The notes under the pieces: model-generated
Databases searched by the model: none
Seen by the model: only the letters and a program-made list of their open reading frames with translations
Told to the model about the DNA's origin: nothing
Assembly (NCBI RefSeq): GCF_024464595.1
Contig: NZ_JANHAW010000001.1
Location: 620,001-684,000 of the forward strand
DNA from: Halobellus litoreus
GTDB taxonomy: Archaea; Halobacteriota; Halobacteria; Halobacteriales; Haloferacaceae
Length of the DNA: 64,000 nt
Direction: 5' to 3'
Program-made: the position numbers and the translations under genes
Shown: positions 1-15,619 of the stretch, piece after piece
How positions within the stretch are numbered: the stretch's first letter is position 1
Layout: every line of letters begins with the position of its first letter

Positions 1-605
1 TTCGCGAGGTCCGACTCGGGGACGTCGACCGTCTCGACGTGCCGCACCCGGTCGTCGTCTTCGATACCGACTTCCACGGAGCGGACCGACGGGGAACCGC
101 TCGGCGCGGTCTCCGGGGTCCCCAGTGCCTCCGTGTTCAGCGTCACCACCGGCGGGCCGCCCTCGAAGCCGAGTTCGGCGTACGCCCGGCCGCCGTAGGC
201 CGGCCGCCCGGCGGTGAGTTCGCCGTCGCGGACCCGGAGGAGGCAGTCGGTGACGCACCCGCCGCGGAGGGCCCGCGACGTCGCCGCGGCGAGATCCGTC
301 CCGTCGGGCGTGTCCGGAAGGAGCACGACCCGCGGCTCGGAGACGGCCGCCGCGAGCGCGGTCGCGCGTGCTCGGACGCCCGCCGCGCCGGCGCGGAACG
401 CCTCCCCGTCCTCGCGGAGGACGTGGACGACCTCGTCCGGGGCTCCCGGCGACAGAGCCGCCGGTGCGGTGAGCCCGTCGAACGCGACGCCGACGACTCG
501 CGGGGAGGTCCCGTCCGCCCCGGACAGTTCGGCCGCGACGCGGTGGGCCTCCTCGAACAGCACCGTCTCCTCGGAGCCCGGGACAACGACGATCGACCCC
601 GTCAT
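1..605 (-). CDS. Electron transfer flavoprotein alpha-subunit-like protein (N-terminal part, cut by window edge)
   Basis: About 201 codons are visible and the frame is still open at base 1. The protein begins MTGSIVVVPGSE and has a mid-region reading RPAYGGRAYAELGF followed by PPVVTLNTEALG. This resembles the EtfA/FixB pattern, in which the N-terminal alpha/beta domain ends in a 'P.YGG.A.A' stretch before a 'P.V.T..P..' strand. The C-terminal FAD-binding domain would lie outside the window. EtfA forms a heterodimer with EtfB and carries electrons between flavoprotein dehydrogenases and the quinone pool. The start ATG overlaps the stop of the upstream oxidoreductase gene (ATGA), so the two are probably co-translated and the reductase may be its redox partner. 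The family call is moderately sure because only half the protein is visible. Confidence 0.6.
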   Translation of the reverse strand, partial: MTGSIVVVPGSEETVLFEEAHRVAAELSGADGTSPRVVGVAFDGLTAPAALSPGAPDEVVHVLREDGEAFRAGAAGVRARATALAAAVSEPRVVLLPDTPDGTDLAAATSRALRGGCVTDCLLRVRDGELTAGRPAYGGRAYAELGFEGGPPVVTLNTEALGTPETAPSGSPSVRSVEVGIEDDDRVRHVETVDVPESDLA

Positions 606-2542
606 GCCGAAAGCTCCCGTGCGAGCATCTCGCCGTCGTAGATCGCCTTGTCTATCAGCCTCGGAGCGACGCAGTCGCCGATCCGGTGGACCGCCCCGTC
701 GACGCCCCGCTCGCGGATCGCTTCGGCGAGCCCGTTACGGGCGCGCCGGCGCTCCGCGACCACGAGCGAGTCCGCGGGTCTCGTCGTCATCTCTTCGGAG
801 TAGACGTTGAGCAACTGCGCGGCGCCGTCCTCGAAACCGATGATCGTGGTGTGGGTCTCGATGTCGACGTCGTTCTCGTACAGCGTCTCCAGGAACGGCG
901 GGACGTTCGTGCCTTCGAGTTGATCGCCGGGGTGATACGAGGTCGTGACGAAGGTCACCTCGCAGTCCTGTTTGTCGAGGAGGTACTCCGCGACGCCGAC
1001 GCCCGCGGCGTGTTTGTTGTTGTCGAAGACGATCACCCTGTCGCCGACCGCCTCCCCGCGGAGCACGTCCCAGGAGCGGTGGACGTCGGGACCCGCGAGG
1101 TCTGGCGCTCGCTCGGTAGCCCCGATCGCGATCACGATGTCGTCCCACGACTCGCCGGCGAGGTCTCCGGCTTCGACTTCGGTGTCCGTCTCGACGGTCA
1201 CGTCGCGGTTGTCGAGTTGGTTGCGGAGGTTCCGGACGGCGTCGCCGAACTCCCGGCGGGAGTCGACCTGGGTCGCGATGTTCGACTGCCCGCCGAGTTC
1301 GGACTCCTTCTCGCGGATCGTCACGTCGTGCCCGAAGTCGGCCGCCGTGACCGCGAAGGAGAGTCCGGCGGGACCGCCCCCGACGACTAACACCTCTCTC
1401 GGGTCCGGGGCCGAATCGAGGTCCTCGATGTGGGGGATGGCCGTCTCGCGGCCCGACCGGGGCGTCTGAATGCAGCCGACGTGACCGTTCGTGTGGATCC
1501 CGCCGAGGCAGTTCTGGTTGCACGCGATGCAGTGGGTCACCTCTTCGTCCTCGCCGCGACGGACCTTGCGGACGGTGTCGGCGTCGCAGATGAGTTGCCG
1601 GCACATCCCGACGAAGTCCGCGTCGCCCGCCTCCAGCACGTCGTTGGCCTTCGTGAGGTCGTTGATACGGCCGGCCGCGATCACCGGTACGTCCAAGAGT
1701 TCCCGCGCCGCGCCGTAGTATTCGGCGGTGTATCCCAGGGGCGCGTGCATCGGGGCGTCCGTGATGTGGAGCTTCGAGATCGTGGCGATGTCGGAGTCCA
1801 GGAAGTCCAGGCTGGGGTGGAGGCGGCGGATCACCTCGACGGCGTAGTCGTAGTCGTAGCCGCCGTCTTCCATCTCGTCGAGTGTCAGGCGGATGCCGAC
1901 CGGGAAGTCCTCGCCCACGCGGTCGCGGATCGCCTCGACGACTTCGTTCACCAACCGGACCCGGTTGTCGATCGACCCGCCGTACCTGTCCGAGCGAGTG
2001 TTGTACTTCGGCGAGATGAACTGCCGGAGGATCCCGTCGTGACCGGCCTTGAGTTCGATCCCGTCGAGTCCGCCCTCCTGAACGTGTTCTGCGGTCTTCG
2101 CGAAGCCGAGGATGACCTCCTCGATGTCCGCCTGTTCCATCCGCTTGGGCATCTCGTACCCGTACTCGGAGGGGACCGCCGAGGGTGCCCACGTCTCGCG
2201 CATCGCGTGTTCGCCCGAGTCCTCGCCGCCGGTATGCTGCAGTTGCGCGAACACCTTCGTTCCGTGTTTATGACAGGCGGCGGATATCATTTTCAGGCGT
2301 GGAACGACGTCGGGATCGTACCCGGAGGCGTACATCGGATTGGAAGCGCTCGGATGGACCAGCATACTCGACGGTCCGATGATGAGGCCGACGCCCCCGC
2401 GGGCCCGGGCCTCGTAGTACGCCGCGTCGCGCTCCGTCGGCAGACCGTCCTCCGCGAACCCGGTCTCGTGGGCGAGAAAGACCGTCCGATTGGGAACGGT
2501 CACCGATCCGATTCGACGGGGGGTGAACAGCATTTCTGACAT
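602..2542 (-). CDS. NADH:flavin oxidoreductase / 2,4-dienoyl-CoA-reductase-like (OYE + 4Fe-4S + pyridine-nucleotide domain)
   Basis: 646 residues. Residues 1-330 form an Old Yellow Enzyme TIM barrel (QLQHTGG near 100, AGHDGILRQFISP near 166-178, with the substrate-pocket His at 168). A 4Fe-4S motif follows with Cys 338, 341, 345 and 357. A C-terminal FAD/NAD(P)-binding region has GGGPAG at 388-393. This architecture is shared by 2,4-dienoyl-CoA reductase FadH, trimethylamine dehydrogenase and the bile-acid enzymes BaiCD/BaiH, and the length is normal for the group. It probably passes electrons from a nicotinamide via FAD and the cluster to FMN and reduces an activated C=C bond. It overlaps the EtfA-like gene by 4 nt. 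The substrate cannot be read from the sequence. Confidence 0.85.
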   Translation of the reverse strand: MSEMLFTPRRIGSVTVPNRTVFLAHETGFAEDGLPTERDAAYYEARARGGVGLIIGPSSMLVHPSASNPMYASGYDPDVVPRLKMISAACHKHGTKVFAQLQHTGGEDSGEHAMRETWAPSAVPSEYGYEMPKRMEQADIEEVILGFAKTAEHVQEGGLDGIELKAGHDGILRQFISPKYNTRSDRYGGSIDNRVRLVNEVVEAIRDRVGEDFPVGIRLTLDEMEDGGYDYDYAVEVIRRLHPSLDFLDSDIATISKLHITDAPMHAPLGYTAEYYGAARELLDVPVIAAGRINDLTKANDVLEAGDADFVGMCRQLICDADTVRKVRRGEDEEVTHCIACNQNCLGGIHTNGHVGCIQTPRSGRETAIPHIEDLDSAPDPREVLVVGGGPAGLSFAVTAADFGHDVTIREKESELGGQSNIATQVDSRREFGDAVRNLRNQLDNRDVTVETDTEVEAGDLAGESWDDIVIAIGATERAPDLAGPDVHRSWDVLRGEAVGDRVIVFDNNKHAAGVGVAEYLLDKQDCEVTFVTTSYHPGDQLEGTNVPPFLETLYENDVDIETHTTIIGFEDGAAQLLNVYSEEMTTRPADSLVVAERRRARNGLAEAIRERGVDGAVHRIGDCVAPRLIDKAIYDGEMLARELSA

Positions 2543-2636: not shown

Positions 2637-2662
2637 TCTCACATCTTGACTGTATTATTGGG

Positions 2663-4708
2663 ATGAATTCGGGGTACCCCTTTGCAGCGATCGTCGACCA
2701 GGCCGCGATGAAGCGCGCGCTCCTGGTCAACGTCGTGAACCCGACCGTCAGCGGTGTCCTGCTCCGCGGGGAACGCGGCACGGGGAAATCGACCGCCGTT
2801 CGCGCGCTCGCGGAGGTTCTCCCCGAGCGCGAGGTCGTGACCGACTGCCCCTACGGGTGTCCGCCGGACGACGTCGAACGGATGTGCGAGACGTGTCGCG
2901 AACGCGTCGAGCGGGGCGAGGAGTTGCCCACCGAACGACGCGAAATGCGCGTCGTGGACCTTCCGCTGAACGCCTCCGAAGACCGCGTCGTCGGCAGCAT
3001 CGACCTCCAGTCGGCCGTCAGCGAGGGGACCGCCCGCTTCGAGCCGGGGATCCTCGCGGAGGCGAACCGGAACGTCCTCTACGTCGACGAGGTGAACCTC
3101 CTCGACGACCACATCGTCGACGTCCTCTTAGACGCCGCGGCGATGGGCGAGAACGTCGTCGAACGCGAGGGCGTCTCCCTCCGCCACCCGGCGGACTTCG
3201 TGCTGGTCGGCACGATGAACCCCGAGGAGGGAGGACTCAGGCCGCAACTGCTGGATCGATTCGACATCGTGGTCGATCTCACGGCGGTCGACGATCCCGA
3301 CGAACGGATCGAAATCGCCGACCGTCGCGAACGGTTCGACGCCGATCCGGACGGCTTTCGCCGCGAATTTCGCGACGAACAACGCGAACTGCGGGCGCGG
3401 ATCCGGGAGGCCCGCGAGCGGGTCGAAGCCGTCGAGATCGACGAGGAATTGCTCCACGACGCCTCCTACGAGGCGCTTCGACAGCGCGCGCACGGGATGC
3501 GAGCCGACATCGCCGTCGAGCGCGTCGCTCGCGGAATCGCCGCTCTCGACGGCGCGGCGGCCGTCGACTCCGCCCACGTGGCGGAGGCGCAGTATTTCGC
3601 GTTCCCCCACCGCGTGGAGGGCGTCGGCGAGATGACGTTCGGCGATGGCGCGCTCGCCACCGGGAGCGACGAGGAGGACGCGGAGGGCGACGACGACGAG
3701 GACAGCGAAGCGGACGGCGACGAGGACGTCGACACCGAAGGCGGCGGGATCCCCATCGTCGAAGGGGAGGACTCCTACGGCGTGGATCCGACGGCGATCG
3801 ATCCGCCCAAAGACCGCACGATGCGGGACGACCTCGCTCGTCGGACGCCCTCTCGGGTCGACGTCAGGAGCGGTCGGTACGTTCGATCGCGGCAGCAAGA
3901 GGACGTCGACGACGTCGCCATCGACGCGACCGTCCGCGCGGCGGCACCGCATCAGAAACGACGGGCCGCGGGTCGAGCGGCCGACGAAGCGGGCACGGCC
4001 GACGAGGGGGACGCGAACGCGCGTCCCTCCGGGATCGAGATCGAACCACGGGACCTCAGACAGAAGCTCCGCGAACGCACCGCCAGGTCGCTCGTGGTGT
4101 TCGTCGTCGACGCCAGCGGAAGCGTGATGAGCGGCCGGCAGATGATGGAGACCAAACGGGGGCTGCTCTCGCTCGTCGAGGACGCCTACCGGGCCCGCGA
4201 CCGGGTGGCGGTCGTCGTCTTCCGCGGCGAGGACGCCTTCACGCTCGTCGAACCGACGCGGAACCACCGGATGGCCAGAGCCGCCGTTTCGGGGCTGACT
4301 GTCGGTGGAAACACGCCGCTGGCCCACGGGCTGGTCGAGGCCTATCAGCTGGTACAACGGGAGCGGCGGCGCGATCAGGACCTCTACCCGCTGGTCGTCC
4401 TGCTGTCGGACGGACAGTCGAACATCGCGTACCGCGAGGACGGGGACGCGAAAGCGGACGCGTTCCGCGCGGCAGCGCTGTTCGACGAACACGACATCCC
4501 GTCGGTCTTCGTGGACACCGGCTACGAACTCGATACCACGCCAGACGAGATCTGGACCGACCGGAAGGCCCGGCGGATGAAGCGCAAGCGGTTCGAACGG
4601 AACCAGACGTTCGCCGAGACGATGGGGGCCGACTACCTCCCGCTGGTCGAACTCCCCCGCGAGGCGACGCTTCCGACCGACCGCGACGAGGAGGGACAGA
4701 CGGCGTGA
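2663..4708 (+). CDS. Magnesium-chelatase-type ATPase with C-terminal vWA domain (ChlI-ChlD fusion)
   Basis: 681 residues from the ATG chosen at 2663 (MNSGYPFAAIVDQ), the usual N-terminus of this family. Walker A GERGTGKS is at 36-43 and Walker B VLYVDE at 138-143. A four-Cys insert (Cys 62, 66, 75, 78) probably binds zinc. An Asp/Glu-rich linker covers about 334-365. A vWA domain starts near 475 with the MIDAS motif DASGS at 483-487, followed by a Thr in GGNTPLAHG and an Asp in LLSDGQSN. The ChlI and ChlD halves of metal chelatases drive ATP-dependent Mg or Co insertion into tetrapyrroles together with a large CobN/ChlH subunit. None is encoded in the window, so the metal and partner are unknown. 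The N-terminal third is duplicated in the next gene. Confidence 0.85.
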   Translation: MNSGYPFAAIVDQAAMKRALLVNVVNPTVSGVLLRGERGTGKSTAVRALAEVLPEREVVTDCPYGCPPDDVERMCETCRERVERGEELPTERREMRVVDLPLNASEDRVVGSIDLQSAVSEGTARFEPGILAEANRNVLYVDEVNLLDDHIVDVLLDAAAMGENVVEREGVSLRHPADFVLVGTMNPEEGGLRPQLLDRFDIVVDLTAVDDPDERIEIADRRERFDADPDGFRREFRDEQRELRARIREARERVEAVEIDEELLHDASYEALRQRAHGMRADIAVERVARGIAALDGAAAVDSAHVAEAQYFAFPHRVEGVGEMTFGDGALATGSDEEDAEGDDDEDSEADGDEDVDTEGGGIPIVEGEDSYGVDPTAIDPPKDRTMRDDLARRTPSRVDVRSGRYVRSRQQEDVDDVAIDATVRAAAPHQKRRAAGRAADEAGTADEGDANARPSGIEIEPRDLRQKLRERTARSLVVFVVDASGSVMSGRQMMETKRGLLSLVEDAYRARDRVAVVVFRGEDAFTLVEPTRNHRMARAAVSGLTVGGNTPLAHGLVEAYQLVQRERRRDQDLYPLVVLLSDGQSNIAYREDGDAKADAFRAAALFDEHDIPSVFVDTGYELDTTPDEIWTDRKARRMKRKRFERNQTFAETMGADYLPLVELPREATLPTDRDEEGQTA

Positions 4709-4826
4709 CCCGGTCCCGGGGCGTCCGGTCGTCGGACGCGAGGCGATTCCCGTTCGGCGCACGGGGCCGGACCCGAAGAGCCGTGCCGAACCGGAGCGCG
4801 CAGCGAGTCACTGGAGGCCGTAACTG

Positions 4827-5924
4827 ATGACAAACAGAGAGACGAACGGACCCGAGACCGCGGAGATCGAGGCACAGTCGACGAACCGGACGTTCCCCTT
4901 CACGGCCATCGTCGATCAGGGGGAAATGAAGCGCGCGCTCCTCCTCAACGCCATCAACCCGGACATCGGCGGCGTGCTGATTCGCGGGGAGCGCGGGACG
5001 GCGAAGTCGACCGCCGTCCGAGCGCTCGCCGACGTCCTTCCGTCCCGGGAGGTGGTCGCCGACTGCCCCTACGGGTGTCCGCCCCACGACCACGACCGGA
5101 TGTGTGCAGAGTGTCGCGATCGGACCGAGCGCGGCGAGGAGTTGCCCACCGAGGAGCGCCGGATGCGCGTCGTGGACCTCCCGCTGAACGCCTCCGAGGA
5201 CCGCGTCGTCGGCAGCATCGACCTCGAACGCGCGGTCCAGGAGGGCGAGCGCGACTTCGAGCCGGGGATCCTCGCGGAGGCGAACCGGAACGTCCTCTAC
5301 GTCGACGAGGTGAACCTCCTCGACGACCACATCGTCGACGTCCTCTTAGACGCCGCGGCGATGGGCGAGAACATCGTCGAACGCGAGGGCGTGTCGTTCC
5401 GTCACCCCGCCGAGTTCATCCTGGTCGGCACGATGAACCCCGAGGAGGGCGACCTGCGCCCGCAGCTGCTGGATCGGTTCGGCCTCGTCGTCGACGTCGA
5501 GGGGGTGAGCGAGGTGGACGACCGCGTGGAGATCAGTCGCCGACGCGCCGCGTTCGACGCCGATCCCGAAGCCTTCCGCGAGGGCTACGAGGACCAACAG
5601 ACGGCACTCCGCGCGGACATCGTCGCGGCCGGCGAGCGGTTGGCGGACGTGACGCTCGGCGACGACGTCGCGAGGCTGATCGCGGGAGTGAACATCGAAC
5701 TCGACGTCGACGGCCATCGAGGCGACATCACGCTTCGGCGGGCGGCGCGAACCCTGGCCGCCCTCGAAGGCGACTCCACGGTGTCGCCTTCGACGGTCCG
5801 TCGCGTGGCGCGGCTGGCGCTACAGCACCGCCTGCAGCGGCTCCCCTTCGAAGAGGAGGAAACGGACGTGATGACCGCGTTCCACGACGTTCGGCGCGAA
5901 CTCGGTCTGGAAGACTGGGAGTGA
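4827..5924 (+). CDS. Magnesium-chelatase ChlI-type AAA+ ATPase
   Basis: 365 residues: a stand-alone version of the AAA+ module of the preceding gene. Walker A GERGTAKS lies at 54-61, the same four-Cys insert at Cys 80, 84, 93 and 96, and Walker B VLYVDE about 60 residues later. The first 20 residues are an extra hydrophilic extension. It ends after the AAA+ lid, with no vWA domain. It follows the vWA gene by 118 nt on the same strand and probably belongs to the same unit. ChlI proteins form hexameric rings that act on ChlD-type rings, so the pair could form a two-ring motor. A 118-bp block is identical between the genes (3037-3154 and 5255-5372), pointing to recent duplication or gene conversion. 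Confidence 0.85.
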
Positions 5925-6111: not shown

Positions 6112-6933
6112 ATGCCAGCATACGATTTCGAGGGCCAGGTCGCGTTCGTCACCGGCGGCGGACGGGGCCAGGGACGGTCGCACGCACAGCACTACGCCAG
6201 ACACGGTGCCGACGTCGTCGTCACCGACATCGCCCACAACGTCGAGACGAACCCGTACGACCTCAGCACAAGCGACGATCTCGCGGAGACGGCCAGCCTC
6301 GTCGAGGCGGAGGGACAGGAAGCCCTCACCGTCGAGATGGACGTACGCGAGGAAGCCGAGGTCGAGGCGGCCGTCGAGGAGGCGCTCGACGAGTTCGGTC
6401 GCATCGACATCCTTGCGAACAACGCCGGGATCTTCAACGCCGCCGATATGACGGAGATGCCCGAGCAGCAGTGGGACGAGATGATCGACACGAACCTCAA
6501 GGGCGTCTGGCTCTGTGCGAAACACGTCGGCAAGCACTTCATCGACCGCGGCGACGGCGGGAAAATCGTCTCCACGTCGTCGGCCGCCGGACTCGTCGGG
6601 ACTCCCTCGGCGGGCCACTACGTGGCGACGAAACACGGCGTGATCGGACTGACGAAGACGCTGGCGCTCGAACTCGCCGAGTACGACGTCAACGTCAACG
6701 CCGTCTGCCCGACCGGCGTCCACACCCAGATGATCGCGGGGTTCTCCGAGGCCTACGGCGAGGAGATGATGGAAGAGATGGGTGCGTTCAGCGGCCCGTG
6801 GAGCGTCTTCGAGGGCGTCGAGATGATCGACTCCGAAGACATCAGCGAGGCGTATATGTGGCTCTCCAGCGACGCCGCTCGCTACGTCACCGGCATAGCG
6901 CTTCCGGTCGACGCAGGAATGACCGCAAAGTGA
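6112..6933 (+). CDS. Short-chain dehydrogenase/reductase, array copy 1
   Basis: 273 residues from ATG 6112, the start that aligns with the other copies. The cofactor motif TGGGRGQG is at 14-21, NNAG at 103-106, the tetrad Asn at 128, and the catalytic Ser157-Tyr170-Lys174. An acidic residue (Asp39) at the end of beta-2 suggests NAD rather than NADP. The GQGRSHA signature and the long insert after beta-2 (about residues 40-70) resemble the mycofactocin-coupled SDR subfamily, which holds its NAD tightly. No mycofactocin biosynthesis genes are visible here. It likely oxidises a secondary alcohol or reduces a ketone in the cytoplasm. It is the first gene of a tight seven-gene array, with a 4-nt gap to copy 2. 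Confidence 0.88.
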   Translation: MPAYDFEGQVAFVTGGGRGQGRSHAQHYARHGADVVVTDIAHNVETNPYDLSTSDDLAETASLVEAEGQEALTVEMDVREEAEVEAAVEEALDEFGRIDILANNAGIFNAADMTEMPEQQWDEMIDTNLKGVWLCAKHVGKHFIDRGDGGKIVSTSSAAGLVGTPSAGHYVATKHGVIGLTKTLALELAEYDVNVNAVCPTGVHTQMIAGFSEAYGEEMMEEMGAFSGPWSVFEGVEMIDSEDISEAYMWLSSDAARYVTGIALPVDAGMTAK

Positions 6934-6937
6934 GACG

Positions 6938-7762
6938 ATGCCAGAATACGACTTCGACGGCAAGGTGGCGTTCGTCACCGGGGCCGCACACGGCCAGGGC
7001 GAATCGCACGCGGTCGAGTACGCACGGCACGGCGCAGACGTCGTGGCGCTCGACCTCGGAGAGAACAAGGAGACGGTCCCGTACGACCTCGGGACCGACG
7101 ACGAACTCGAGGCGACCGCCGAGGCGGTTCGTGAACACGGTCAGGAAGCGCTGACGGTCAAAGCCGACGTCTCCGAGGAGGCCGAGGTCGCGGCGGCCGT
7201 CGAGGCGGCAGTCGACGAGTTCGGGAAGATCGACATCCTCGCGAACAACGCCGGGATCGAGTCGTTCGCCGACGCGGTCGAACTCGACGAGCGGATGTGG
7301 GACGAACTCCTGGGGACCAACCTGAAGGGGATCTGGCTCTGCGCGAAACACGTCGGCAAGCACTTCATCGACCGCGGCGACGGCGGCAAGATCGTCAACA
7401 CCGCCTCAGTGTCGGGAATGACTGGGATCCCGCTCGGCAACGCCCACTACGTCTCCGCGAAGTGGGGCGTCCGCGGGTTGACGAAGACGCTGGCGCTCGA
7501 ACTCGCCGAGTACGACGTCAACGTCAACGCGGTCGCCCCGGGCGGGGTCGACACCCCGATGGTCACCGGGATAATGGAGGCCTACGGCGAGGAGATGCTC
7601 GCCGAGTCGCAGGCGCTCTCCGGCCCGTGGAACGTGTTCGACGAGGAGGGGATGCAGGACGCACAGTCGATCACGGACGCCTACATGTGGCTCTCCAGCG
7701 ACGCCGCCCGTTACGTCACCGGGATCACCCTCCCGGTCGATGCCGGGTTCACGGCGAAATGA
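6938..7762 (+). CDS. Short-chain dehydrogenase/reductase, array copy 2
   Basis: 274 residues. TGAAHGQG is at 14-21, NNAG at 103-106, Asn128, Ser157, and YVSAK (Tyr171, Lys175). The single extra residue lies between Ser and Tyr (IPLGNAHY). This copy differs most within the array. It has GESHAVEYA instead of GRSHAQHYA, A-L-D at the end of beta-2 (ADVVALDL), and a different end of the substrate lid (MQDAQSITDAY rather than the DISEAY found in the others). It starts 4 nt after copy 1, so the two are almost certainly translated from one message. It is expected to be an NAD-dependent alcohol/ketone oxidoreductase with its own substrate preference. Confidence 0.88.
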   Translation: MPEYDFDGKVAFVTGAAHGQGESHAVEYARHGADVVALDLGENKETVPYDLGTDDELEATAEAVREHGQEALTVKADVSEEAEVAAAVEAAVDEFGKIDILANNAGIESFADAVELDERMWDELLGTNLKGIWLCAKHVGKHFIDRGDGGKIVNTASVSGMTGIPLGNAHYVSAKWGVRGLTKTLALELAEYDVNVNAVAPGGVDTPMVTGIMEAYGEEMLAESQALSGPWNVFDEEGMQDAQSITDAYMWLSSDAARYVTGITLPVDAGFTAK

Positions 7763-7780
7763 AACGAACAACACAGAACG

Positions 7781-8602
7781 ATGCCAGAATACGACTTCAG
7801 CGGCAAGGTCGCGTTCGTCACCGGGGCCGCACACGGCCAGGGACGGTCGCACGCACAGCACTACGCGAAACACGGCGCCGACGTCGTCGTCACTGACGTC
7901 GGCCACAACCTCGATTCCGTTCCCTACGATATGGGGACGACCGAGGAACTGGAGGAAACGGCCGACATCGTCGAGGACGAGGGGCAGGAAGCGCTCGCCA
8001 TACAGCTGGACGTCCGCGAGGAAGACCAGGTCGAAGCCGCCGTCGAGGAGGCGCTCGACGAGTTCGGCCGCATCGACTTCCTCGCGAACAACGCCGGGAT
8101 TTGGCCGGCCGCGGATATGACGGAGATGGACGAGGCGATGTGGGACGTCGTCGTCGACACGATCCTGAAAGGGGTGTGGTTGTGTTCGAAGCACGTCGGG
8201 CAACATTTCATCGACCGCGGCGACGGCGGCAAGATCGTCTCGACCTCCTCGACGGCCGGCCTGGTCGGCGCGCCCGGCGCCGGTCACTACGTCGCCGGCA
8301 AGCACGGCGTGATCGGACTGACGAAGACGCTGGCGCTGGAACTCGCCGAGTACGACGTCAACGTCAACGCCGTCTGTCCGACGGCGCTCGATAGCCCGGG
8401 AATGCAGAACTACATCGAATCGTACGGCCCGGAGATGCTCGAAGAGATGGGCGAGTTGATCGGTCCGATGAACGTCTTCGAACCGGGCGAGATGATCGAC
8501 TCCGAAGACATCAGCGAGGCGTATATGTGGCTCTCCAGCGACGCCGCACGCTACGTCACCGGGATCGCATTACCCGTCGACGCCGGGGCGACCGCGAAGT
8601 AA
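7781..8602 (+). CDS. Short-chain dehydrogenase/reductase, array copy 3 (tetrad Asn replaced by Ile)
   Basis: 273 residues with TGAAHGQG at 14-21, NNAG at 103-106, Ser157, Tyr170 and Lys174. The Asn of the SDR catalytic tetrad (position 128 in copies 1, 2, 4, 5 and 6, in DTNLKG) is Ile here (DTILKG). This copy pairs with copy 7. Both have an aromatic W-P after NNAG, VCPTA-D-PG after the active site, and a PGEM loop near the C-terminus. Loss of the Asn may slow proton relay or mark a changed active site; Ser, Tyr and Lys are intact. It lies 18 nt after copy 2 and 31 nt before copy 4 on the same transcript. Confidence 0.87.
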   Translation: MPEYDFSGKVAFVTGAAHGQGRSHAQHYAKHGADVVVTDVGHNLDSVPYDMGTTEELEETADIVEDEGQEALAIQLDVREEDQVEAAVEEALDEFGRIDFLANNAGIWPAADMTEMDEAMWDVVVDTILKGVWLCSKHVGQHFIDRGDGGKIVSTSSTAGLVGAPGAGHYVAGKHGVIGLTKTLALELAEYDVNVNAVCPTALDSPGMQNYIESYGPEMLEEMGELIGPMNVFEPGEMIDSEDISEAYMWLSSDAARYVTGIALPVDAGATAK

Positions 8603-8633
8603 CGACAGGAAAACCGGAACGAGACACAGGAAA

Positions 8634-9455
8634 ATGGTAGAATACGACTTCAGCGGCAAGGTGGCGTTCGTCACCGGGGCCGCACACGGCCAGGGGCGGT
8701 CGCACGCACAGCACTACGCCAGACACGGCGCCGACGTCGTCGTCACCGATATCGGCCACAACGTCGACACCGTTCCCTACGACCTCGGAACCGCGGACGA
8801 ACTCAACGAGACCGCGGGACTCGTCGAATCAGAGGGTCAGGAGGCCCTCGCGATCGAGATGGACGTGCGCGAGGAAGCCGAGGTCGAAGCCGCCGTCGGG
8901 GAAGCCCTCGACGAGTTCGGCCGCATCGACTTCCTCGCGAACAACGCCGGGATCGGTTCGCTGTCGGACGCGACGGAGATGGACGAGGCGATGTGGGACG
9001 AGATGATCGACACGAACCTCAAGGGCGTCTGGCTCTGTGCGAAACACGTCGGTAAGCACTTCATCGATCGCGGCGACGGCGGCAAGATCGTCTCCACCTC
9101 CTCGACGGCCGGGGCGATCGGACTCCCCGGACAGGGCCATTACGTCTCCGCGAAGCACGGCGTGCTGGGCCTCACCAAGACGCTGGCGCTGGAACTCGCC
9201 GAGTACGACGTCAACGTCAACTGTATCGGGCCGACGGGGATCGACACCCCGATGATCTCGGGCTTCACCGAGGCCTACGGCGAGGAGACGCTGGGCGAGA
9301 TGGCCGAACTGACCGGGCCGTGGAACGTCTTCGGCGACGGCGGAATGATCGACGCATCGGACATCAGCGAGGCGTACATGTGGCTCTCCAGCGACGCCGC
9401 ACGCTACGTCACGGGAATCTATCTCCCGGTCGACGCCGGGTTCCTCGCGAAATGA
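8634..9455 (+). CDS. Short-chain dehydrogenase/reductase, array copy 4
   Basis: 273 residues with TGAAHGQG at 14-21, NNAG at 103-106, Asn128 (DTNLKG), Ser157, Tyr170 (YVSAK) and Lys174. The C-terminal lid carries FGDGGMIDASDISEAY, shared in form with copy 6. The first 60 residues are nearly identical to those of copy 7 (both have GHNVDTVPYDLGTADEL), which suggests shuffling or gene conversion between array members. The complete catalytic tetrad makes this a normal NAD-type dehydrogenase; the substrate is unknown. Confidence 0.88.
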   Translation: MVEYDFSGKVAFVTGAAHGQGRSHAQHYARHGADVVVTDIGHNVDTVPYDLGTADELNETAGLVESEGQEALAIEMDVREEAEVEAAVGEALDEFGRIDFLANNAGIGSLSDATEMDEAMWDEMIDTNLKGVWLCAKHVGKHFIDRGDGGKIVSTSSTAGAIGLPGQGHYVSAKHGVLGLTKTLALELAEYDVNVNCIGPTGIDTPMISGFTEAYGEETLGEMAELTGPWNVFGDGGMIDASDISEAYMWLSSDAARYVTGIYLPVDAGFLAK

Positions 9456-9474
9456 ACCGCCAACGGAGACACCA

Positions 9475-10293
9475 ATGGTAACATACGACTTCGGCGGCAA
9501 GGTGGCGTTCGTCACCGGCGCCGCACACGGCCAGGGCGAATCGCACGCGGTACACTACGCGAAGCACGGCGCTGACGTCGTCGTCACCGACATCTGCGGA
9601 GACATCGACTCGAACCCGTACAGTCTCGGGACTCGCGAGGAACTCGAAGGGACCGCCGAACAGGTCGAGGCGGAGGGGCAGAACGCGCTCGCGATCGACG
9701 TGGACGTTCGCGACGAGGCCCAGGTCGAGGCCGCCGTCGAGGAAGCGATCGACGAGTTCGGCCGCATCGACATCCTCGCGAACAACGCCGGGATCTGGAA
9801 CATGGCCGACCTGACCGAGATGGGCGAGCAGCAGTGGGACGAGCTCGTCGATACCAATCTCAAAGGCGTCTGGCTCTGCGCGAAGCACGTCGGCAAGCAC
9901 TTCATCGACCGCGGCGACGGCGGCAAGATCGTCAACACCGCCTCGACCGCCGGCTTCACCGGCATTCCGGGTGGCGGCCACTACGTCGCCGCCAAACACG
10001 GCGTGATCGGACTCACGAAGACCCTCGCACTCGAACTTGCGGAGTACGACGTCAACGTCAACAGCGTCGCACCCACGGGCGTCGACACCCCGCTCGTGAC
10101 GGGGATGCTGGAAGCCTACGGCGAGGAGACGATGGAGGAGATGGGCGCGATGACCGGCCCGTGGAACGTGATAGACGGTGAGATGATCGACGCATCGGAC
10201 ATCAGCGAGGCGTATATGTGGCTCTCCAGCGACGCCGCTCGCTACGTCACCGGAACGACACTCAAAGTGGACGCGGGATTCACCGCGAAATAA
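9475..10293 (+). CDS. Short-chain dehydrogenase/reductase, array copy 5
   Basis: 272 residues with TGAAHGQG at 14-21, the GESHAVHYA variant shared with copy 2, NNAG at 103-106, Asn128, Ser157, Tyr170 (YVAAK) and Lys174. It has one residue fewer than most copies, in the lid (NVIDGEMIDASDISEAY). It starts 19 nt after copy 4 with GGAG-type bases just upstream of the ATG, and is followed by a 12-nt gap to copy 6. It belongs to the same subfamily and operon as its neighbours; nothing shows what sets its substrate apart. Confidence 0.88.
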   Translation: MVTYDFGGKVAFVTGAAHGQGESHAVHYAKHGADVVVTDICGDIDSNPYSLGTREELEGTAEQVEAEGQNALAIDVDVRDEAQVEAAVEEAIDEFGRIDILANNAGIWNMADLTEMGEQQWDELVDTNLKGVWLCAKHVGKHFIDRGDGGKIVNTASTAGFTGIPGGGHYVAAKHGVIGLTKTLALELAEYDVNVNSVAPTGVDTPLVTGMLEAYGEETMEEMGAMTGPWNVIDGEMIDASDISEAYMWLSSDAARYVTGTTLKVDAGFTAK

Positions 10294-10305
10294 CGAGACA
10301 GGACG

Positions 10306-11127
10306 ATGGTAGAATACGACTTCAGCGGCAAGGTGGCGTTCGTCACCGGCGCCGCGCACGGGCAGGGACGATCGCACGCACAGCACTACGCGAAACACGG
10401 CGCGGACGTCGTCGTCACCGACATCGGCGAGAATATGGAAACGGTCCCGTACGACCTCGGCACGACGGCGGAACTCGACGAGACGGTCGGTCTGATCGAA
10501 GACGAGGGACAGGACGCGCTGGCCATCCAGATGGACGTGCGCGACGAGACCCAGGTCGAAGCCGCGGTCGACGAGGCGCTCGACGAGTTCGGCCGCATCG
10601 ACATCCTCGCGAACAACGCCGGGATCGCACACTTCTGTGACCTCGTCGAGATGGACGAGGCGATGTGGGACGAGATGCTCGATACGAACCTGAAGGGCGT
10701 GTGGCTCGCCTCGAAGCACGTCGGCAAGCACTTCATCGACCGCGGCGACGGCGGGAAAATCGTCTCCACCTCCTCGATCTACGGCAAGGTCGCCGGGCCC
10801 GGATCGGGCCACTACATCGCCGCGAAGCACGGCGTGCTCGGTCTCACGAAGACGCTGGCGCTGGAACTCGCCGAGTACGACGTCAACGTCAACGCCGTCT
10901 GCCCGACGGGGGTCGACACCCCGATGATCACGGGCGTGACGGAAGCCTACGGCTCGGAGGCCCTCGAAGCGGCCACGGATATGACCGGACCGTGGAACAT
11001 CTTCGGCGACGGCGGAATGATCGAATCGAGAGACATCAGCGAGGCGTACATGTGGCTCTCCAGCGACGCCGCACGCTACGTCACCGGGATCGGACTCCCG
11101 GTCGACGCCGGAATGCTCGCGAAGTAA
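10306..11127 (+). CDS. Short-chain dehydrogenase/reductase, array copy 6
   Basis: 273 residues with TGAAHGQG at 14-21, NNAG at 103-106, Asn128 (DTNLKG), Ser157, Tyr170 (YIAAK) and Lys174. The loop after the catalytic Ser reads SIYGKVAGPGSGHY, unlike the S-A-G-type loops of its neighbours. The lid has SEALEAATDMTGPW, so the substrate pocket is probably different. The gap to copy 5 is 12 nt and to copy 7 is 25 nt. Confidence 0.88.
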   Translation: MVEYDFSGKVAFVTGAAHGQGRSHAQHYAKHGADVVVTDIGENMETVPYDLGTTAELDETVGLIEDEGQDALAIQMDVRDETQVEAAVDEALDEFGRIDILANNAGIAHFCDLVEMDEAMWDEMLDTNLKGVWLASKHVGKHFIDRGDGGKIVSTSSIYGKVAGPGSGHYIAAKHGVLGLTKTLALELAEYDVNVNAVCPTGVDTPMITGVTEAYGSEALEAATDMTGPWNIFGDGGMIESRDISEAYMWLSSDAARYVTGIGLPVDAGMLAK

Positions 11128-11152
11128 CCAATCCACGCACGACCGAACAACG

Positions 11153-11974
11153 ATGCCAGAATACGACTTCAGCGGCAAGGTGGCCTTCGTCACCGGGGCC
11201 GCGCACGGACAGGGGCGCACGCACGCACAGCACTACGCGAAACACGGCGCGGACGTCGTCGTCACCGATATCGGCCACAACGTCGACACCGTTCCCTACG
11301 ACCTCGGAACCGCGGACGAACTCGACGAAACCGCGGGACTCGTCGAGGACGCGGGCCAAGAGTCGCTCGCGATCGAGATGGACGTCCGCGAGGAGGCCCA
11401 GGTCGAAGCCGCCGTCGAGGAAGCCCTCGACGAGTTCGGCCGCATCGACTTCCTCGCGAACAACGCCGGCTTCTGGCCGCCGTCGGACGCGGTGGAGATG
11501 GACGAGACGATGTGGGACGACGTGATCGACACGTTGCTGAAGGGCGTCTGGTTGCCCTCGAAACACGTCGGCAAGCACTTCATCGACCGCGGCGACGGCG
11601 GGAAAATCGTCTCCACCTCCTCGACGGCCGGTCTGGTCGGGATTCCCAGCTTCGGGCACTACGTGGCCGGAAAGCACGGCGTGCTCGGGCTGACCAAGAC
11701 GCTGGCGCTGGAACTCGCCGAGTACGACGTCAACGTCAACGCCGTCTGCCCGACGGCGGTCGACACGCCCGGGAACGTGGGGTTGGTCGAGGCCTACGGC
11801 GAGGAGGTCTTCGAGGAGATCGGGGCGCTCAGCGGCCCGTTGAACGTGCTCGACCCGGGCGAGATGCTCGAACCCGACGACATCAGCGAGGCGTATATGT
11901 GGCTCTCCAGCGACGCCGCCCGCTACGTCACCGGGATCGCGCTCCCGGTCGACGCCGGCGCGACGATAAAGTAG
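11153..11974 (+). CDS. Short-chain dehydrogenase/reductase, array copy 7 (tetrad Asn replaced by Leu)
   Basis: 273 residues with TGAAHGQG at 14-21, NNAG at 103-106, Ser157, Tyr170 (YVAGK) and Lys174. Position 128, Asn in most copies, is Leu (DTLLKG). It shares with copy 3 the W-P after NNAG, the VCPTA-D-PG segment and the PGEM lid, so the two form a distinct pair inside the array. It is the last gene of the run and is followed by two genes on the other strand. Confidence 0.87.
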   Translation: MPEYDFSGKVAFVTGAAHGQGRTHAQHYAKHGADVVVTDIGHNVDTVPYDLGTADELDETAGLVEDAGQESLAIEMDVREEAQVEAAVEEALDEFGRIDFLANNAGFWPPSDAVEMDETMWDDVIDTLLKGVWLPSKHVGKHFIDRGDGGKIVSTSSTAGLVGIPSFGHYVAGKHGVLGLTKTLALELAEYDVNVNAVCPTAVDTPGNVGLVEAYGEEVFEEIGALSGPLNVLDPGEMLEPDDISEAYMWLSSDAARYVTGIALPVDAGATIK

Positions 11975-11989
11975 CGACCGCGGTTCTTT

Positions 11990-12295
11990 TCACTCCCAGG
12001 GCAACGTCGGATCGCTCCGACTCCAGAACGACGCCAGGCCGACGGCCAGCCCCATCCCCGCGACGAACGCGACGGCGAGCGTGCTCGCGTCGATAGCGTC
12101 TCGAAACGCCCAGGCCAGTACGCCCGCGACGGCGGCGTTGGCACCGCCCCAGAGGACGTTGACGACGGCGCTCGACTGCGATCCGAACGGCGTCATATGG
12201 CGCTGGCCGGTGATCCCGCGGACGAAGTGCGGGATCGCGTTCACGGCGAAGAGCCCCACGAGCGCGAAGACGACGAGCGAGCCGAGCGTTGCCAT
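11990..12295 (-). CDS. Small haloarchaeal membrane protein of unknown function
   Basis: 101 residues from the ATG at 12295, chosen because a perfect GGAGG lies 6-10 nt upstream; an in-frame GTG at 12310 would add five residues. Three hydrophobic segments are visible, near residues 3-21, 45-66 and 72-91, with a loop holding GQRHMTPFG between the first two. The C-terminus is short and polar. No catalytic motif is evident. It starts 17 nt after the stop of the ABM-fold gene and is probably co-transcribed with it, between the SDR array and the eighth SDR. The function is unknown; a membrane accessory to the redox cluster is only a guess. Confidence 0.65.
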   Translation of the reverse strand: MATLGSLVVFALVGLFAVNAIPHFVRGITGQRHMTPFGSQSSAVVNVLWGGANAAVAGVLAWAFRDAIDASTLAVAFVAGMGLAVGLASFWSRSDPTLPWE

Positions 12296-12311
12296 CGTAC
12301 CCTCCTGCACC

Positions 12312-12617
12312 CTACAGTTCGACTTCGGCAGCGTCCGTGACCGCGAACCGCATCACTTCGGGCTCGCCGTGGAGGAGGTCCGGGAGCCGCTCCTCCAACC
12401 GCTGGAAGTGGGCTGTCTCGGTGTGGGACGCGAAGGCCGCATCGTCCTCGTAGCGTTCGATGAACCGGAGGACGTTCTCGTCTTCCAGGTCGACCGTGGC
12501 CCGGTACTCGACGACGCCGGGCTCCTCGTTCGACGCGTCGACGAGCATTTCGGCGAGTTCGATCGCTTCGTCGCGCTGCGCCGGATCGATCGGAAAGCTC
12601 GCGTGGACGACGATCAT
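12312..12617 (-). CDS. Putative quinol monooxygenase / ABM-domain protein
   Basis: 101 residues forming a single dimeric alpha/beta-barrel (ABM) domain. It begins MIVVHASFPIDP, with EEPGVVEYRATVDLED in the first half and the diagnostic ERYEDDAAFASHTET.HFQ segment near 65-85. Small cofactor-free proteins of this type (YgiN, ActVA-Orf6) oxidise quinols or polyketides, and some only bind or degrade aromatic products. A box A (TTTATTTTT, 12645-12653 on the minus strand) lies about 31 nt before the ATG, which supports the start. The position between SDRs suggests a role in the same pathway. Confidence 0.8.
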   Translation of the reverse strand: MIVVHASFPIDPAQRDEAIELAEMLVDASNEEPGVVEYRATVDLEDENVLRFIERYEDDAAFASHTETAHFQRLEERLPDLLHGEPEVMRFAVTDAAEVEL

Positions 12618-12644
12618 ATCACTGTCCTAATTTGTTGTGAGAAG

Positions 12645-12653
12645 AAAAATAAA
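12645..12653 (-). promoter_or_regulatory. Box A candidate for the ABM/membrane protein pair
   Basis: TTTATTTTT on the minus strand lies about 31 nt upstream of the ATG at 12617, a normal spacing for a leaderless haloarchaeal message. Confidence 0.45.
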
Positions 12654-12713
12654 TTTGGGTTGAAAGGACGCGCCTCGGCAGGTGATTAGTACCGGCGGGA
12701 CCTAACGGACGCT

Positions 12714-13532
12714 GTGGTCACCTACGACTTCGAGGGGAGCGTCGCGTTCGTCACCGGTGCCGGCCGGGGACAGGGGCGGTCCCACGCGGTCGCGTACGCC
12801 GAACACGGGGCCGACGTCGTCGTCACCGACATCGCCCGGGACGTGCGGACCACGCAGTACCCGCTGGCCACTGCGGCAGATCTCGACGAAACGGCCCGGC
12901 TGGTGGAGGAAGCTGGTCAAGCGTCGCTCGCGATCCAGATGGACGTCCGCGACGAGGCCCAAGTCGAGGCGGCCGTCGAGGAAGCCCTCGACGAGTTCGG
13001 CCGCATCGACTTCCTCGCGAACAACGCCGGAATCTGGAACGTCACGGACCTCGTGGAGATGGAGGCGCTCCAGTGGACGCAACTCGTCGACACGGATCTG
13101 AAGGGGATGTGGCTCTGCGCCAAACACGTCGGGAGGCATTTCGCCGACCGCGAGGGGAGCGGGCGGATCGTGAACACCGCCTCGACCGCGGGGGTGGTCG
13201 GCGCGAAGGGCTCGGGGCACTACGCCGCCGCGAAGCACGGCGTCGTGGGGCTGACGAAGGCCCTCACGCTCGAACTCGCCGAACACGACGTGACGGTCAA
13301 CTGCGTCGCTCCGACCGGCGTGAACACGCCGATGATCGACGGGATGCTGGAGACCGTCGGCCAATCGGCGCTCGACTCGGTGTCGGACGCCAGCGGCTCG
13401 ATGAACGTCATCGACGAGCAGCTAATCGATCCGCGAGACGTGAGCGAGGCGTATCTGTGGCTCTCCAGCGACGCCGCCCGCTACGTCACCGGCGCCGTCC
13501 TCTCGGTCGACGCGGGGATGCTCGCGAAGTGA
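12714..13532 (+). CDS. Short-chain dehydrogenase/reductase, eighth copy (detached)
   Basis: 272 residues with a GTG start at 12714, the start that aligns with the other copies (VTYDFEGSVAFVTGAGRGQG). The cofactor motif is at 14-21, NNAG at 103-106, followed by Ser and YAAAK. Position 128 is Asp (DTDLKG) instead of the tetrad Asn. It is the most diverged member. DRGDGGKIV is replaced by DREGSGRIV, and the lid reads SDASGSMNVIDEQLID. It stands apart from the seven-gene run by the two minus-strand genes, and its 3' end faces the second OYE-type reductase. It is probably a related dehydrogenase with a separate role. Confidence 0.86.
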   Translation: MVTYDFEGSVAFVTGAGRGQGRSHAVAYAEHGADVVVTDIARDVRTTQYPLATAADLDETARLVEEAGQASLAIQMDVRDEAQVEAAVEEALDEFGRIDFLANNAGIWNVTDLVEMEALQWTQLVDTDLKGMWLCAKHVGRHFADREGSGRIVNTASTAGVVGAKGSGHYAAAKHGVVGLTKALTLELAEHDVTVNCVAPTGVNTPMIDGMLETVGQSALDSVSDASGSMNVIDEQLIDPRDVSEAYLWLSSDAARYVTGAVLSVDAGMLAK

Positions 13533-13654: not shown

Positions 13655-15619
13655 TCAGAGCCGTCGGGCGAGCGACTCCCCGTCGTAGTACGCGCGGTCG
13701 AGCTTTCGCGGCGACACGGCGTCGCCGATCCGGTACACGTCGTCGCGGCGGCGGTCCAGTTCGAGATACAGCTCCTCCGACGCCCGTCGACGGCCGACGA
13801 CGACGACGGTGTCGGGGCTTCTCGTCTCCGTCTCGCCGGTCAGCGTGTTGCGGAGCGTGACAGTCCCGTCCGCGGCTACTTCGTCGAGCGCGCGGTTACC
13901 GGTGAACGTCGCTCCCCGCCCCTGTAACGCCGCGACGAACCCCGGAAGGTTCGGCTGCTCGGTTCGGAACGCCGGATAGTGGTCCGTCGAGACCATCTCG
14001 ACGGACTCCGCGCGGTCCAGGAGAATCAGCCCGGCCTGCACCGTGATGACCCAGCGGTTGTCGTCGAACAGGAGGACGTCGTCGCCGATCTCGACGGCGT
14101 CGCCCTCGGAGCGCTCACCCCTGCCTTCGAGCCCCGCCCCACCGCTCGCCGCGAGGAGGTCGAAGGCGTTCACCACCGAGCCCTCGTACTCGTCGTCGGG
14201 GATCACCGGGGCGTCCGCACCGGTCGCAACGACGACCGCGTCCCACGACGGCTCCACGTCCGCGGCCGAGACCGGCGCGTCGAGTTCCACCTGGACACCG
14301 GCGGCTTCGACGGCGGCCCGTAGATCGGCGGCGGCCCACTCGAAGGGTTCGAGTGGCCCCTGCGCGGCGTCCGTGAGTTGCCCGCCGAGGCCGCTTCGAG
14401 CCTCTCGGAGCGTCACGTCGTGGCCGCGCTCGGCCGCGACGGCGGCGAACCGGGTTCCCGCCGGTCCGCCGCCGACGACGAGGATTCGCTGCGGGAGCGC
14501 CGCGGGGGAGAGTTCGGAGAGGGCCGGGAGCTCAGTCTCGCGACCGGTCCGCGGGTTGACCACGCACTCGACGTGCCCGCCGTGCGCGTGGCCGTAGACG
14601 CCCTCCAAGCACTTCTGGTTGCACTGGATACAGCGGTCGTAGCGTTCGCCCGCGGCGGCCTTCGAGAGGGTCTCCGCGTCCGCCAGCAGCTGCCGGGTGA
14701 AGCTCACGAACTCGACGCCCGCGTCGAACAGATCGGGGGCGTCGTCCACGGTCGTGTACGGGAGCCGCCCGACGACGGGAACGTCGACGCGGTCGACCGC
14801 CGTCGCGATAGGTTCGAGCATCTCGGGCGGAGAGACCGACACGCCGGCGTGCGTCTGATTGTACGTGGCGCGCGTCCCGACGGTACAAGAGAGGTAGTCG
14901 AACCCTTCGACTGCACCGAGGATGTCGGGGACATCGCCGAACTCGTACCCGCCGTACTCCAGTTCGGCCAGCGAGAGATGGAGACCGACGGGGCCGTCGG
15001 TGCGGTCCGCGACCGCGGCGAGCGCCTCGTTGACGAACCGCGCGCGACCGTCCCACTCGCCGCCGTACTCGTCGGTCCGAGCGTTGTACCGCGGCGAGAG
15101 GAACTGCCTGAGGACGGAGAACGGCCCCGCGGCCAGTTCGACCCCGTCGAAGCCGGCCGCCCCGAGGTTCTCCGCGGCGGTCGCGAAGCCGTCCAAGACA
15201 GATTCGACGTCCGCGGTCGTCATCGTCTTCGGCATCTCGTAGGCCGCGTCCGACGGCGACGCCGACGGTGCCAACTGGGCCTGCATCTCCCAGTCGCCGC
15301 GCGATTCCGCGCCTGTGTGCGTGAGCTGCCCGATGATACGCGAGCCGGATTCGTGAACGGCATCGACGACAGCGGACAGGCCAGGAATCGCGTCCGCGTC
15401 GTACGCGTCGATGAACGCCGCGCCGCTCGCGGACGGGTGGACCAGCATCTGTGCGGGGCCGACGACGAGCCCGGCACCACCGGCGGCGCGGGCTTCGAGG
15501 TGAGCGGCGAGTTCGTCGGTCGCGAGACCGTCGTCGACGAACCGAGTGCGCACGGGACGGAACACCCCCCGGTTCGGAACCGGGAGTTCCCCGATCTCTC
15601 CAGGGTCGAAGAGATTCAT
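13655..15619 (-). CDS. NADH:flavin oxidoreductase / 2,4-dienoyl-CoA-reductase-like (second OYE + 4Fe-4S protein)
   Basis: 654 residues with the same architecture as the gene at 602-2542: OYE barrel to about 325, 4Fe-4S ligands Cys330, 333, 337 and 352, and GGGPAG at 383-388. The two proteins are clearly different paralogues. The pocket His seen in the first (His168) is Pro166 here (AGPFSVLRQFLSP), so substrate protonation or binding should differ. The C-terminal half has an extra acidic insert near 500. It converges on the eighth SDR with a 122-nt gap that shows nothing else. As with BaiCD and BaiH in bile-acid bacteria, the two might act on different positions or stereoisomers; this is inference. 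Confidence 0.84.
   Translation of the reverse strand: MNLFDPGEIGELPVPNRGVFRPVRTRFVDDGLATDELAAHLEARAAGGAGLVVGPAQMLVHPSASGAAFIDAYDADAIPGLSAVVDAVHESGSRIIGQLTHTGAESRGDWEMQAQLAPSASPSDAAYEMPKTMTTADVESVLDGFATAAENLGAAGFDGVELAAGPFSVLRQFLSPRYNARTDEYGGEWDGRARFVNEALAAVADRTDGPVGLHLSLAELEYGGYEFGDVPDILGAVEGFDYLSCTVGTRATYNQTHAGVSVSPPEMLEPIATAVDRVDVPVVGRLPYTTVDDAPDLFDAGVEFVSFTRQLLADAETLSKAAAGERYDRCIQCNQKCLEGVYGHAHGGHVECVVNPRTGRETELPALSELSPAALPQRILVVGGGPAGTRFAAVAAERGHDVTLREARSGLGGQLTDAAQGPLEPFEWAAADLRAAVEAAGVQVELDAPVSAADVEPSWDAVVVATGADAPVIPDDEYEGSVVNAFDLLAASGGAGLEGRGERSEGDAVEIGDDVLLFDDNRWVITVQAGLILLDRAESVEMVSTDHYPAFRTEQPNLPGFVAALQGRGATFTGNRALDEVAADGTVTLRNTLTGETETRSPDTVVVVGRRRASEELYLELDRRRDDVYRIGDAVSPRKLDRAYYDGESLARRL

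Follow-up and report, generated by a model that had tools for sequence, protein, structure and literature searches.

The SDR array

The stretch of DNA analysed here (the window) comprises 64,000 nucleotides of the genome of Halobellus litoreus (G000), positions 620001-684000 of its contig C1. Between positions 6112 and 13532 of the window there are eight open reading frames (ORFs) of 272-274 residues on the + strand that encode short-chain dehydrogenases/reductases (SDRs), and they are part of a mycofactocin locus that is about 23 kb long and begins to the left of the window. The genes are listed below with their bit scores against TIGR03971, the family of mycofactocin-coupled SDRs, which has a curated cut-off of 300 bits.

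6112..6933, + strand: SDR1, 273 aa; 335.5 bits
6938..7762, + strand: SDR2, 274 aa; TIGR03971 is the best family, 296.8 bits, 3.2 below the cut-off
7781..8602, + strand: SDR3, 273 aa, Ile at the catalytic-Asn position; 315.3 bits
8634..9455, + strand: SDR4, 273 aa; 318.9 bits
9475..10293, + strand: SDR5, 272 aa; 334.3 bits
10306..11127, + strand: SDR6, 273 aa; 322.5 bits
11153..11974, + strand: SDR7, 273 aa, GQGRTHA loop, Leu at the catalytic-Asn position; 309.9 bits
12714..13532, + strand: SDR8, 272 aa, GTG start, Asp at the catalytic-Asn position, separate clade; 322.5 bits; orthologues in ten loci

The gaps between the genes are, in order, 4, 18, 31, 19, 12, 25 and 739 nt, and the genes may well be read from a common transcript. 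A preliminary description of the region had given seven near-equal genes with gaps of 4-31 nt and an eighth one 740 nt further on, and apart from the single nucleotide in the last gap the coordinates agree with this. It had also ascribed a GQG.SHA cofactor loop and a long insert after beta-2 to all eight proteins. The loop is found in seven of them but reads GQGRTHA in SDR7, while the insert, located at the NAD site, is there in all eight and is absent from the ordinary, non-family SDR of the locus. Asp39 and the catalytic Ser, Tyr and Lys are invariant in the alignment of the eight.

TIGR03971 is the top NCBIfam family for each of the SDRs, seven of which score above the cut-off (309.9-335.5 bits). 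A ninth member of the family in this genome lies outside the window, at C3:240065-240865. The phylogenetic tree placed the array SDRs together with bacterial mycofactocin-coupled SDRs and apart from other haloarchaeal SDRs (support 100/99), so that the assignment to the mycofactocin-coupled type in the preliminary description holds by both family profile and clade. An approximately unbiased (AU) test gave p 0.056 for a constraint clade of all TIGR03971 rows minus G374, an outlying SDR from a genome without mycofactocin genes, and is weak since the constraint excluded that row. Among solved structures the closest matches are carveol dehydrogenases of mycobacteria and their relatives; for SDR4 the best is the carveol dehydrogenase 3OEC (E 1.6e-59). 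An AlphaFold model made from the eight window proteins had a mean pLDDT of 66, too low for fold search or pocket mapping, and was not used.

Mycofactocin genes beside the window and their distribution

The statement in the preliminary description that the window holds no mycofactocin genes is literally correct, but mftA, mftB2, mftC and mftF are located at C1:612246-616052, some 4-8 kb to the left of its start. In a search of the genome for mftA to mftF these four were found, all above their own cut-offs; mftD was not found, and mftE was represented only by distant, unlinked homologues. The profile search located mftC at C1:612674-613510 with about 308-309 bits (cut-off 265), and the corresponding values were 34.2 bits for mftA (cut-off 25), 130.2 for mftB with the MftB2 model (cut-off 62) and 281.5 for mftF (cut-off 280). 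The mftA ORF near mftC ends in EEIRIDGICGVY, and the final residues IDGICGVY are shared by the MftA peptides of all 13 haloarchaeal carriers described below. MftF (L016:5626-8052) is extended by a fused FkbM-type methyltransferase domain. Several other haloarchaeal mycofactocin loci also have long glycosyltransferase ORFs, and Halolamina sp. CBA1230 has a short one.

Of 391 haloarchaeal genomes, 13 have an mftC gene above cut-off. Each of these has TIGR03971 SDRs above cut-off near mftC, as compared to 6 of the 378 mftC-less genomes with such an SDR anywhere (Fisher p = 4e-20, a value that is overstated since related genomes are not independent; the 13 carriers span seven genera and four families). 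The profile scores of the SDRs are bimodal, either at least 274 or at most 228 bits, and in the carriers the nearest TIGR03971 SDRs are situated about 2-15 kb from mftC. There are two to nine SDRs per mycofactocin locus; the counts per genome are lower bounds, taken from the best six candidates in each, and those outside the locus regions rest on genome profile searches. The Zn-dependent partner family TIGR03989 gave no match above cut-off in the 20 genomes searched.

Ten of the loci have the same order with small variations: mftE, mftABCF, a module of electron transfer flavoprotein (ETF), FixC and old yellow enzyme (OYE) genes, a pair of AAA+ genes, the SDR array, a last SDR and another OYE. 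Two of these, the present one and that of Halobellus inordinatus (G095), lack mftE. In the other three loci (G001, G007 and G371) the AAA+ pair is absent and the SDRs number just two. In Halorubrum sp. 48-1-W an extra SDR copy (G108 C51:32876-33697, in L049) has an in-frame stop or a frame break, which indicates that the arrays lose members too. The SDRs of the six mftC-less genomes form a clade of their own together with one further protein from a plasmid without mycofactocin genes, and several of them adjoin glycosyltransferase genes (L063:9661-10473, L081:7001-7813 and L064-L068).

Divergence of the array and its flanking genes

The eight array SDRs are 56-81% identical to each other. Their closest genes elsewhere, in other species, are 83-91% identical (78% for SDR8), as compared to at most 67-81% for the closest sister within the array, and a tree of 99 SDRs resolves the array members into orthologous groups spanning different genera. 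By these sequence comparisons the array is an old set shared between species, and not a recent local burst. The large local expansion of the preliminary description is thus real as to the many tandem paralogues, but the set recurs in ten haloarchaeal loci and did not arise by amplification in this genome.

Among paralogues of the same genome the mean identity peaks at 86% over residues 127-147 and 169-189, segments that in the SDR fold presumably cover helices of the main oligomer interface. It is lowest over residues 211-231 (47%) and 106-126 (56%), which presumably lie next to the substrate pocket. In a clade of eight genes, SDR3 and SDR7 among them, Ile, Leu or Val takes the place of the catalytic Asn; SDR8 and the majority of its orthologues have Asp there. 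This pattern of variation, together with the replacements of the catalytic Asn, argues for specialised enzymes. The earlier suggestion of selection for many related substrates fits the old cross-genus groups and the concentration of differences in the presumed pocket segments. Codon identity at shared residues is only slightly higher within genomes (0.657) than between them (0.631), and identical runs of at least 45 bases occur roughly four times as often among paralogues of one genome as across genomes. Codon usage may be a partial cause of this excess, which is also a hint of short-tract gene conversion.

From mftF towards the array, the genes on the - strand are ETF-beta, the ordinary SDR, a small ferredoxin with a weak FixX match, a FixC-like flavoprotein, ETF-alpha and an OYE protein, followed on the + strand by a chelatase-like AAA+/VWA fusion, an AAA+ ATPase and the SDR array. 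The flanking genes within the window are:

1..605, - strand: ETF-alpha, 5' part, the gene running left of the window (C1:619457-620605); best match NF038209 mft_etfA, 125 bits, below the cut-off of 240; Pfam ETF_alpha
602..2542, - strand: FadH/OYE-family flavoprotein 1; best match TIGR03997 mycofact_OYE_2, 627 bits, below the cut-off of 793
2657..4708, + strand: chelatase-like AAA+/VWA fusion; TIGR02442, 631 bits, below the cut-off of 779; in all ten array loci
4827..5924, + strand: ChlI-like AAA+ ATPase; orthologues 81-85% identical in all ten array loci, none in the three small loci
11990..12310, - strand: small protein common to six mycofactocin loci (cluster c14); no Pfam or NCBIfam match
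12312..12617, - strand: ABM-domain protein, putative quinol monooxygenase-like; Pfam PF03992, 61.6 bits; cluster c21, in three mycofactocin loci
13655..15619, - strand: FadH/OYE-family flavoprotein 2, right edge of the conserved locus; best match TIGR03997, 410 bits, below the cut-off of 793

Both OYE proteins and ETF-alpha match mycofactocin-system families best, in each case below cut-off. The neighbour in Haloterrigena turkmenica that corresponds to the ABM-domain protein bears a quinol monooxygenase-like name. For the AAA+/VWA and AAA+ genes (2657-5924) a second copy, 55% identical, was observed elsewhere in the genome, at C1:951717-952652. On the Rhodococcus ruber plasmid pmega_1 (L085:12165-16439) a VWA protein and a MoxR ATPase are encoded between mycofactocin-coupled SDR genes; this arrangement beside bacterial SDRs was seen in one of eight plasmid neighbourhoods, four of which were too short to judge, and is a lead only. 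Further to the right, positions 24000-46800 of the window have a low GC content, 41-61% as compared to about 64-71% elsewhere, and encode a NeuB/PseI-like synthase, a PseG above cut-off and a PseC-like aminotransferase, a sugar pathway of the nonulosonic-acid type. This stretch looks like an acquired surface-glycan cluster.

Proposed function and comparison with known systems

It is very probable that the array SDRs are old, specialised nicotinoprotein alcohol dehydrogenases of TIGR03971 in a mycofactocin locus, and that they share one mycofactocin redox pool. In mycobacterial structures of this family the insert buries the NAD, and no exchange was seen by nuclear magnetic resonance (PMC5264612); mycofactocin is the proposed electron acceptor of such SDRs (PMC3023750). 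By analogy with these homologues, the array SDRs would bind NAD tightly. Each of them would oxidise its own substrate, probably a hydrophobic secondary alcohol, a class guessed at from carveol dehydrogenase and other bacterial relatives, and leave the electrons on an NAD that remains enclosed within the protein. From this buried NAD they would be collected by a small cofactor, formed from the peptide MftA by MftB2, MftC and MftF. They would then probably reach the membrane quinone pool by way of ETF-alpha/beta, the FixC-like flavoprotein and the ferredoxin, and the two OYE proteins may offer a second exit. The ETF-FixC-ferredoxin module would then stand in place of MftG, and the specialised set of paralogues would travel with the cofactor genes.

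Several points weigh against this. All function is read from sequence. The ETF-FixC-ferredoxin route is suggested by where the genes lie, and scores with the mycofactocin ETF models stay below cut-off, while MftF clears its own cut-off narrowly (281.5 against 280 bits). There is no linked mftE in this locus, and elsewhere in the genome only homologues 28-36% identical to locus-linked MftE; MftD gave no match at 1e-10 in this genome and none above cut-off in the 13 mftC-containing genomes. MftG was not found above cut-off in any of the 13 genomes either, the best match here being unlinked and reaching 248 bits (cut-off 387). The absences of MftD, MftG and linked MftE come from profile and protein searches in assemblies that are 97-100% complete. 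Furthermore, six haloarchaeal genomes hold a TIGR03971 SDR without mftC, so membership of the family alone is no proof of mycofactocin use. The Zn-dependent partner family TIGR03989 gave no match above cut-off in the 20 genomes searched.

An explanation of the missing genes could be that the pathway of this strain is decayed or incomplete and that the SDRs run on another acceptor, as the lack of a linked mftE and of MftD and MftG above cut-off would suggest. It is improbable, as none of the 13 haloarchaeal carriers has MftD or MftG and the majority of them retain mftE, the reading frames of mftABCF and the SDRs are intact, and MftD and MftE have been reported as not universal (PMC3023750). Somewhat less probable still is that the enzymes are ordinary NAD(P)-exchanging SDRs which belong to TIGR03971 by sequence, with the adjoining mycofactocin genes being incidental. 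The members in the six mftC-less genomes do show that the family is not strictly tied to mycofactocin, but they belong to the separate clade described above, and array-type members were found only in mycofactocin loci, in several genera.

The number of paralogues can also be explained in other ways than by specialisation. The helix segments at the presumed main interface, 86% conserved among paralogues, would permit mixed oligomers, and the close gene packing would favour co-expression, so that the expansion could serve combinatorial assembly; we regard this as very unlikely, since such conservation is also expected from the shared fold and cofactor function and does not by itself show assembly. 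Least credible of all is that the array was amplified in tandem recently to raise gene dosage, its paralogues being equivalent in function. The head-to-tail order, the short gaps and the excess of long identical runs within genomes point in that direction, but the paralogues differ by 19-44%, form cross-genus orthologous groups and have had the catalytic Asn replaced clade by clade, and the SDR tree and the identity table contradict it.

Within the reading as specialised mycofactocin-dependent enzymes, the haloarchaea could have a variant of the system, although we hold this to be less likely than not. Completion of the cofactor would then do without MftD, either through some other enzyme that deaminates or because the redox group is a different one, and re-oxidation would fall to the ETF-FixC-ferredoxin module and not to MftG. 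The AAA+/VWA pair, present in all ten array loci and in none of the three two-SDR loci, would assist the array enzymes, perhaps as a chaperone that activates them.

The mycobacterial pathway (mftABCDEFG) has mftA, an mftB-type gene, mftC and mftF in common with Halobellus, but the haloarchaeal carriers have no MftD or MftG above cut-off, the Halobellus MftB is of the MftB2 type, and its MftF is fused to the FkbM methyltransferase domain. In Thermomicrobium roseum, by contrast, an annotated mftD adjoins the mycofactocin cluster. MftG, present in 75% of mftC carriers, connects mycofactocin to respiration in mycobacteria, and the study from 2025 left its replacement in the remaining quarter open (PMC11778925); the conserved ETF-FixC-ferredoxin module is a concrete candidate. 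Actinobacterial TIGR03971 SDRs (carveol dehydrogenases, LimC) share the insert after beta-2, the cofactor loop, the Ser/Tyr/Lys residues and the clade with the array SDRs. They are, however, 40-47% identical to the array (tblastn) and mostly scattered single genes in catabolic neighbourhoods, and the bacterial SDRs form a branch separate from the haloarchaeal ones.

Haloterrigena turkmenica was listed with five TIGR03971 SDRs already in 2011 (PMC3023750). Its plasmid pHTUR01 has the order mftE, mftA, mftB2, mftC, mftF, ETF/FAD-oxidoreductase/ferredoxin, OYE, VWA protein, AAA ATPase, SDR array, last SDR and OYE, with a linked mftE, three tandem SDRs and two others, whereas in Halobellus seven SDRs stand in tandem with an eighth set apart, and mftE is not linked. 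The 254-kb plasmid pCBA1230-01 of Halolamina sp. CBA1230 shares this order and has six SDRs, five in tandem and one apart, which RefSeq names 'mycofactocin-coupled SDR family oxidoreductase'; it differs in a linked creatininase-family gene and a shorter glycosyltransferase without the long C-terminal part. Both loci are plasmid-borne, and RefSeq annotates mycofactocin genes there. Such arrays are hence known in outline. Literature searches on mycofactocin with haloarchaea, MoxR or electron transfer flavoprotein gave nothing on the subject. Less expected are the missing MftD and MftG, the lack of a linked MftE in Halobellus, the recurring ETF-FixC-ferredoxin-OYE module and the chelatase-like AAA+/VWA pair. 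The absence of MftD raises the question of how the redox group forms in haloarchaea, and the six mftC-less genomes show that the automatic name 'mycofactocin-coupled' can mislead and may be wrong for the SDRs of their clade. The haloarchaeal loci represent a mycofactocin system outside the bacteria with a compact, conserved set of partners, the specificity of which could be tested on one locus.

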